Source: a virus
DNA: 24,854 nt
IMG/VR virus record: IMGVR_UViG_3300030450_000811
Location: 1-24,854 of that record
Reading direction: 5' to 3' (one strand)
Position numbers and translations under genes: made by a program. Shown piece after piece: positions 1 through 18,026 of this stretch (the first letter of the stretch is position 1; each line of letters opens with the position of its first letter). The notes under the pieces were generated by a model, which saw only the letters and a list, made by a program, of their open reading frames with translations, was not told the DNA's origin and ran no database searches.

Positions 1-168
1 ATAATTTACTCTTTTTCCGTCTAAATTATAGTAACCAAATACAATACTTTCTAAACTTCTATTACCATATTGGGCGATTCCTCCCTCTACCTTTAAATCT
101 TCTAGTGTTTTCGGACTGATTCCTCTCTTTGCTGCGAACTGAATCACTTTTTCTGTAGGTTTTTTCAT
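1..168 (-). CDS. Primase-helicase (T7 gp4B-like), N-terminal part, cut by window edge
   Basis: Partial gene; 56 codons are visible, running off the left edge. The start is ATG at 168, preceded at ideal spacing by AAAGGAGGAG. The product begins MKKPTEKVIQFAAKRGISP and continues with a segment ending GYYNLDGKRVNY. This resembles the start of the RNA-polymerase/TOPRIM domain of phage primase-helicases, where a helix with 'rGIs.eT...l' is followed by strands reading 'f.Y.n.dG..v'. T7 makes a comparable short form (gp4B) that starts internally after the zinc domain. The upstream zinc-domain ORF overlaps this gene by 107 nt in another frame. The expected role is fork unwinding with or without primer synthesis. 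The catalytic primase and helicase motifs lie outside the window, so the identification rests on the N-terminal pattern and the adjacent zinc domain. Confidence 0.7.
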   Translation of the reverse strand, partial: MKKPTEKVIQFAAKRGISPKTLEDLKVEGGIAQYGNRSLESIVFGYYNLDGKRVNY

Positions 169-337
169 AAAATTCTCCTCCTTTTGCGTTACAATGGTGG
201 CAATAATACACCACACCTTCTGTTTTAATCGTTACACTTAAACACCTATCGTGCTTATTCTTTCTAGTATGACTACATTCTGGACATAAATACTTTCCAG
301 AGTGTTTTCTACCTAATAGCCATTCTCTAGTTATCAT
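62..337 (-). CDS. Primase-type zinc-binding domain protein (T7 gp4A N-terminus-like)
   Basis: 91 aa. Residues 18-49 carry C18-P-E-C21, then a beta-rich stretch (LSVTI, GVVYYC) and C46-H-H-C49-N-A-K-G-G. This is the CxxC...CxxC zinc ribbon of phage and organellar primase-helicases, which recognises the template trinucleotide for priming. Normally it is fused in frame to the primase domain. Here the frame runs on for about 35 low-complexity basic residues and stops, while the primase-helicase begins at 168 in the +1 frame. The start at 337 has no clear Shine-Dalgarno and overlaps the HTH gene by 11 nt, suggesting translational coupling. The tail after residue 56 does not look like conserved protein, so the useful product may be either the short zinc protein or a frameshifted fusion. 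Confidence 0.75.
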   Translation of the reverse strand: MITREWLLGRKHSGKYLCPECSHTRKNKHDRCLSVTIKTEGVVYYCHHCNAKGGEFYEKTYRKSDSVRSKERNQSENTRRFKGRGRNRPIW

Positions 338-17691: not shown

Positions 17692-18026
17692 TACTTACAG
17701 ATAGAGTATGGAAATTATTAGAACCAGCTACTGCAATAGCAGACAATGTTACAAAACAAGAAGTAGAGCAAGGATTAAATGATGGTACATATCAAATGTT
17801 TATGGATGAAAAAAGTGTAGTTATTACAGTAGGGTATAAAGATTCTTTGCGTATAGGTTTAGCAGGTGGAGAATTAAATAGTTTGAAAAGTTTAGAAAAA
17901 AAGATTATAAAGTATGCAAAAGAAAAAAAATATAAATGTGTTGACATTTTAGGAAGAATAGGTTGGGAAAAAGAATTAGAAGGTTATAAAAGAAAAGCAG
18001 TTTTATTAAGAAAGGAAATAGCATGA
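17688..18026 (+). CDS. GNAT-fold protein, T7 gp13-like
   Basis: 112 aa. A short strand-helix-strand protein with YKDSLRIGLAGGELNSLKSLEKKIIKYAKEKKYKCVDILGRIGWEKELEGYKRKAVLLRKEI. The final 'v.i.GR.GWek.l.gy......l.k.i' is the acyltransferase-fold (GNAT) core motif seen in T7 gp13-class internal virion proteins and their relatives. The acetyl-CoA pyrophosphate-binding loop is not evident, so enzyme activity is doubtful; a structural or assembly role is more likely. Coupled to both neighbours by ATGA overlaps. Confidence 0.55.
   Translation: MILTDRVWKLLEPATAIADNVTKQEVEQGLNDGTYQMFMDEKSVVITVGYKDSLRIGLAGGELNSLKSLEKKIIKYAKEKKYKCVDILGRIGWEKELEGYKRKAVLLRKEIA

Follow-up and report, generated by a model that had tools for sequence, protein, structure and literature searches.

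Primase-helicases of the T7 type are textbook fusions that join a zinc ribbon, a Toprim primase and a DnaB-like helicase. In gene 4 of T7 a short form, 4B, is made from an internal start just after the zinc domain, and it shares one frame with the longer form, 4A, which carries the zinc domain covalently. The fused primase-helicases of the phrog_239 family, such as those of Cellulophaga phi19:1, Synechococcus phage MinM2 and the Flavobacterium elemo phages, have a zinc domain and a helicase homologous to the one described here (about 25-33% identity), and they are encoded in one continuous ORF with an ordinary density of stops in the other frame. How tightly the zinc domain has to be tethered is a question for all DnaG-type primases. 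Corn et al. in 2005 reportedly found the zinc-binding domain (ZBD) of DnaG acting in trans between primase subunits, which is a precedent for a zinc domain serving the polymerase domain of another subunit, although in DnaG the zinc domain is still a covalent part of each subunit.

The locus analysed here has the parts of T7 gp4 and Twinkle, i.e. zinc ribbon, Toprim primase and DnaB-like helicase, and its short form likewise starts just after the zinc domain. It differs from T7 in that the zinc domain is out of frame and its tail is dual-coded, and a fused form is not predicted. We consider it quite likely that this is a split enzyme of the T7-gp4/Twinkle type, consisting of a 4B-like primase-helicase and a free ZBD whose disordered tail is dual-coded, the two acting in trans. 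It is a known enzyme in a new form, a primase split long ago whose out-of-frame overlap is under selection, and we found no published description of such a split in the open-access literature, which speaks only weakly for novelty. As the window is a complete IMG/VR record of 24,854 bases, the helicase is cut after 56 aa (Table 1).

Table 1. Features of the split primase locus in the window.
Feature	Position	Strand	Remarks
Standalone primase zinc-binding protein (ZBD ORF)	62..337	minus	91 aa; CPEC/CHHC ribbon; same ORF in related loci
Zinc-ribbon core, residues 1-57	167..337	minus	Conserved columns; helicase ATG at the end of the last predicted strand (52-56)
ZBD tail, residues 58-91	65..166	minus	Dual-coded with helicase codons 1-35; predicted disordered, hydrophilic
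ZBD stop codon, TAA	62..64	minus	At +104 from the helicase ATG in the window and most relatives
Shine-Dalgarno, AGGAGG	177..182	minus	8 nt before ATG 168; SD-like sequence in nearly all marine relatives
TTTT, proposed slip site in the SD-ATG spacer	169..172	minus	TATT, TTCT, TACT, AACT, AATT or CATT in relatives
Primase-helicase N-terminus, first 56 aa	1..168	minus	Cut by the record end; Toprim and DnaB-like in relatives

The ZBD and helicase ORFs share 107 nt, with the helicase frame offset by +1 from that of the ZBD. Read along the minus strand, the junction runs AGGAGG (182-177), AGAA (176-173), TTT (172-170), T (169) and ATG (168-166). The preliminary description had given the same offset of one frame, with AGGAGG ending 4 nt before TTT and the ATG at 168, and direct reading of the letters and coordinates agrees with it on both points. 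The cysteine motifs of the ZBD ORF occupy residues 18-21 (CPEC) and 46-49 (CHHC). Directly upstream is a winged-helix gene (327-584, minus; Pfam HTH_39, E 3e-12), the end of which overlaps the start of the zinc ORF by 11 nt. It is preceded by a PDDEXK/RusA-like nuclease and a PD-(D/E)XK exonuclease (556-945 and 1552-2334, both minus); these nucleases are a recombination-replication module upstream of the primase.

As the window itself holds only 56 aa of the helicase, its identity is taken from the relatives. Two of these (L055 and L036) match Pfam Toprim_2 and DnaB_C above the cut-off, the complete helicase relatives match phrog_239 'DNA primase/helicase' with E values of 1e-67 or better, and the catalytic EGE and DxD residues of Toprim are invariant in nine split helicases. 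No named relative of the helicase exceeds about 30% identity; the terminase of the window is about 46% identical to that of cultured pelagiphages such as HTVC035P. The profile matches of the ZBD ORF are weak and fall on the primase zinc regions of phrog_47, phrog_2304 and phrog_239 (best primase-family E 0.004-0.006). A tblastn search with the zinc protein leads to the zinc regions of fused primases in named phages, and the CxxC...CxxC pattern is invariant in an alignment of 19 ZBDs. In L036 the zinc protein is placed on positions 37-95 of phrog_239 (a weak match, E 0.004) and the helicase on positions 119-609 of the same profile, while in the fused relative L115 positions 43-597 are covered by one chain. 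Because the two ORFs of L036 match complementary parts of phrog_239 and the zinc protein matches the zinc regions of fused primases, homology identifies the two ORFs as the pieces of a single T7-gp4/Twinkle-like enzyme that is divided directly behind the zinc ribbon. An AlphaFold model of the ZBD has a mean pLDDT of only 58; it contains a helix (residues 4-9) and three strands (33-37, 41-46 and 52-56), and residues 1-58 form a zinc-ribbon-like core of modest confidence. From residue 60 onward no secondary structure is predicted in the tail and its pLDDT stays below 50. Neither a search of solved structures with the ZBD sequence nor a fold search with this low-confidence model gave a significant match.

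Relatives from many metagenomes were gathered by scans that took the zinc protein, the helicase and the neighbouring nuclease as queries; pooled, these scans yielded 185 loci, many of them overlapping, with 36 distinct zinc-to-stop sequences, which are marine. In the marine relatives with a complete junction and a helicase identity of at least about 60%, the frame break is kept in the same +1 sense and the ZBD ORF ends at +104 from the helicase ATG, or near that position where short indels occur. The persistent feature of the junction is an ATG that immediately follows the zinc ribbon, and in the marine set it nearly always comes with a Shine-Dalgarno. Some relatives (L077, L088 and L090) have a stop in the helicase frame just 15 nt upstream of this ATG, so the ATG is the likely helicase start there.

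A few individual loci deserve mention. L070, with its zinc ORF from 1008 and its helicase ATG at 1189, is a chimera of an L085-type zinc core with an L060-type helicase and tail, and the crossover falls at the Shine-Dalgarno/ATG of the helicase; this would fit interchangeable zinc and helicase partners. A similar exchange, within the zinc core, is seen between L107 and L096. The 62.9-kb contig IMGVR_UViG_3300030116_002682 carries two different split primase loci (L080 and L084) about 36 kb apart; chimeric assembly or the joining of two phages may account for this.

The same +1 overlap is present in seven deeply diverged alphaproteobacterial phages or prophages that are about 27-40% identical: L150/L274 (a Ponticaulis MAG), L278/L166, L279 (phage BDU-MI-1), L281, L282, L286 and L287. 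A first scan of genome contigs with a marine helicase as query gave no relative; L281, L282, L286 and L287 were found by searching genomes of the same class and order. L150 and L166/L278, at 54% and 62% G+C respectively, have the same out-of-frame overlap at about 30% helicase identity. Some of the alphaproteobacterial starts have a Shine-Dalgarno that is weak or not clear (L279 and L286). The cultured Bradyrhizobium phage BDU-MI-1 (KY940711) has the overlap too; its helicase is annotated from 17744, and its zinc ORF, ending at about position 17871 of the record, is unannotated. Among the remaining distant relatives that were examined, named phages included, most have a single-frame fusion, in several cases with a DnaG-like CHC2 region. 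In a quick, unrooted tree with several long branches, the split helicases lie on one side of a branch with an SH-aLRT of 97 and the fused homologues on the other. The split arrangement looks old and maintained, and the constant +1 phase in all split lineages is likely to reflect one ancestral split, with the phase subsequently locked by the overlap. L283 (genome G281; the open helicase frame runs from about 1264 on the reverse strand) falls among the split helicases in the tree and has no zinc domain directly upstream; its zinc domain may have been lost or may be located elsewhere.

The part of the ZBD frame that lies within the helicase gene is under selection. We kept the helicase protein fixed and redrew its codons from each gene's own usage over a fixed region of 33 codons, leaving out the lineage of the window, which had defined the region. 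The ZBD frame is open through the 33 codons in all nine marine lineages tested (per-lineage P 0.0002-0.09); treating the lineages as independent, the combined values are 7e-12 by Fisher's method and 1e-20 for the product, and shared ancestry among the lineages makes them approximate. Later 33-codon segments of the same frame are never open (0 of 119), and 3-7 stops interrupt the third frame over the fixed region. The G+C-rich alphaproteobacterial lineages are open in 7 of 7 cases, which is weak evidence on its own (product 1e-4, Fisher 0.20). Conditional on an open frame, the tail is also poorer in hydrophobic and aromatic residues than the synonymous redraws, with a Stouffer z of -9.5 in the marine set (without L088, which could not be simulated) and -5.5 in the alphaproteobacterial set.

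Codon bias at the 5' end of the gene was considered as a cause of the hydrophilic open frame and rejected on two control sets. In 19 other genes of the window the mean z over the first 33 codons is +0.13; in 40 fused relatives the homologous stretch has a z of +0.03, with 3.7 stops observed against 3.8 expected. Since both control sets are flat, neither codon bias in the start region nor the helicase sequence explains the tail. Positive charge, examined as a possible selected trait of the tail, gave no consistent signal. We set aside the absence of T-ending codons before AA, AG or GA (0 of 76 marine, 0 of 68 alphaproteobacterial), which is circular as evidence since the region is defined by its first stop. 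Openness and composition of the tail are thus under selection; its exact sequence is not conserved, since codon identity at the synonymous sites of the overlap amounts to 0.97 of the expected value, compared with 1.00 ± 0.05 elsewhere, i.e. there is no excess.

We propose that one mRNA gives two proteins, the 91-aa ZBD and a primase-helicase without a ZBD, which would be separate polypeptides. Initiation of the helicase would be independent, at ATG 168 behind a Shine-Dalgarno of its own and roughly where T7 begins its short 4B form. Past the zinc ribbon the ZBD gene continues for 34 codons inside the helicase gene, in the other frame, and this stretch is a hydrophilic tail predicted to be flexible. 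The ZBD would recognise the template in trans for the helicase that lacks it, and the tail would stand in for the lost covalent linker. Action in trans is the most likely mode of the ZBD, and the tail may bind the helicase ring, bind DNA, or merely put some distance between the ZBD stop and the start of the helicase. For human Twinkle, the N-terminal domain on its own failed to support rolling-circle synthesis in trans (PMC9860392); this counts against the proposal, but both the domain and the activity are different.

Going further, we speculate that the loci represent an old class of alphaproteobacterial and marine phages in which the replicative primase is permanently split and a free, template-reading zinc domain is recruited to the primase-helicase ring by a disordered tail that arose out of frame within the helicase gene, with a variable stoichiometry and with zinc domains that can be swapped between phages (compare L070). 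This wider proposal is tentative, and we hold it to be possible rather than probable. A lineage in which the zinc domain has apparently been separate for a very long time is a natural test of trans action. A disordered out-of-frame tail that selection holds open while its sequence drifts is likewise useful for the study of overlapping-gene evolution. There is a practical side as well: annotation misses the zinc gene, none being listed in BDU-MI-1, and genome scans that call such frame breaks slips or errors would be wrong at this locus.

An alternative that keeps the two proteins separate is that the tail has no function. A stop placed about 100 nt past the helicase start would keep terminating ribosomes off that start or weaken the coupling between the genes, and the tail would be hydrophilic merely to be harmless. 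The constraint on openness and composition rather than on exact sequence agrees with this, as does the predicted disorder of the tail. However, termination close by usually helps re-initiation, most phage gene pairs overlap by only a few bases, and the constant position of the stop in the marine lineages is not explained by the alternative itself. We regard a functionless tail as unlikely.

Somewhat less probable still is the mechanism suggested in the preliminary description, a prfB-like programmed +1 frameshift at TTT_T that would join ZBD and helicase into a 4A-like full-length protein besides the short form. The window has what such an event would use, namely the Shine-Dalgarno, TTT_T and an exact entry into the helicase frame, and every split lineage is in the +1 phase that the mechanism needs; the same phase is, however, also expected from one ancestral split locked by the overlap. 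In prfB the Shine-Dalgarno lies 3 nt before CTTT and a stop codon occupies the A site, both almost universally conserved, and TTTTTGA variants of the site occur in low-G+C bacteria (PMC12421855). Our locus resembles prfB in that an internal Shine-Dalgarno precedes four consecutive pyrimidines by a few bases, but its spacing is 4 nt (AGAA), the TTT is followed by TAT so that the A site holds no stop, and conservation of the slip codon is lacking.

Directly ahead of the ATG stands TTTT in the lineages of the window, L060, L082, L083, L084, L089, L094 and L110, TATT in L073, L088, L096 and L100, TTCT in L079 and L090, TACT in L036, AACT in L085 and AATT in L070. Altogether TTTT precedes the true ATG in about 18 of 36 distinct marine junctions, counting seven sequences that were first scored from an earlier ATG and were assigned to TTTT because they belong to TTTT lineages, and in none of the seven alphaproteobacterial lineages. 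About half of the marine sequences have TAT, TTC, TAC, AAC or AAT in place of the TTT at -4, and on most of these codons (TAT, TAC, AAC and AAT) the P-site tRNA is unable to re-pair after a +1 move. TTTT is not unusual in an A+T-rich spacer. A slip at TTTT would free the 34 downstream ZBD codons, yet these are constrained, and the synonymous identity in the overlap gives no sign of a conserved recoding signal. A list of codons with three identical bases in the overlap of every lineage held none common to all.

A slip on TTT_T as a general mechanism is rejected on the unconserved slip codon, the missing A-site stop and the lack of raised synonymous conservation, and the frameshift reading is probably wrong. 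Of the features expected to recur in related phages, the frame break is conserved and the Shine-Dalgarno is nearly always kept in the marine set, while TTTT is not conserved. The suggestion that one site yields two forms holds in part: the Shine-Dalgarno and ATG 168 are the conserved start of a short 4B-like form, whereas the long fused form is unsupported, and a covalent 4A form with the ZBD is not predicted, the ZBD being in a different frame in all split relatives.

The remaining alternative, which had earlier been named as the main one, is a sequencing error, or a recent frameshift mutation that killed a fused gene; one base in TTTT would join both frames, but with the same break in about 35 distinct marine sequences from independent metagenomes, in the seven diverged alphaproteobacterial lineages, the cultured phage BDU-MI-1 among them, and in bacterial genomes, and with the Toprim catalytic residues intact, it is hardly credible and an error is excluded.

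A small-scale variation adjoins the junction of the split enzyme. The three codons after the last zinc cysteine (190-182 of the window) vary among the near-identical sequences of the window, L007 and L008, encoding NAK, NQH or GIS, and they lie next to a Shine-Dalgarno that is constant in all three.
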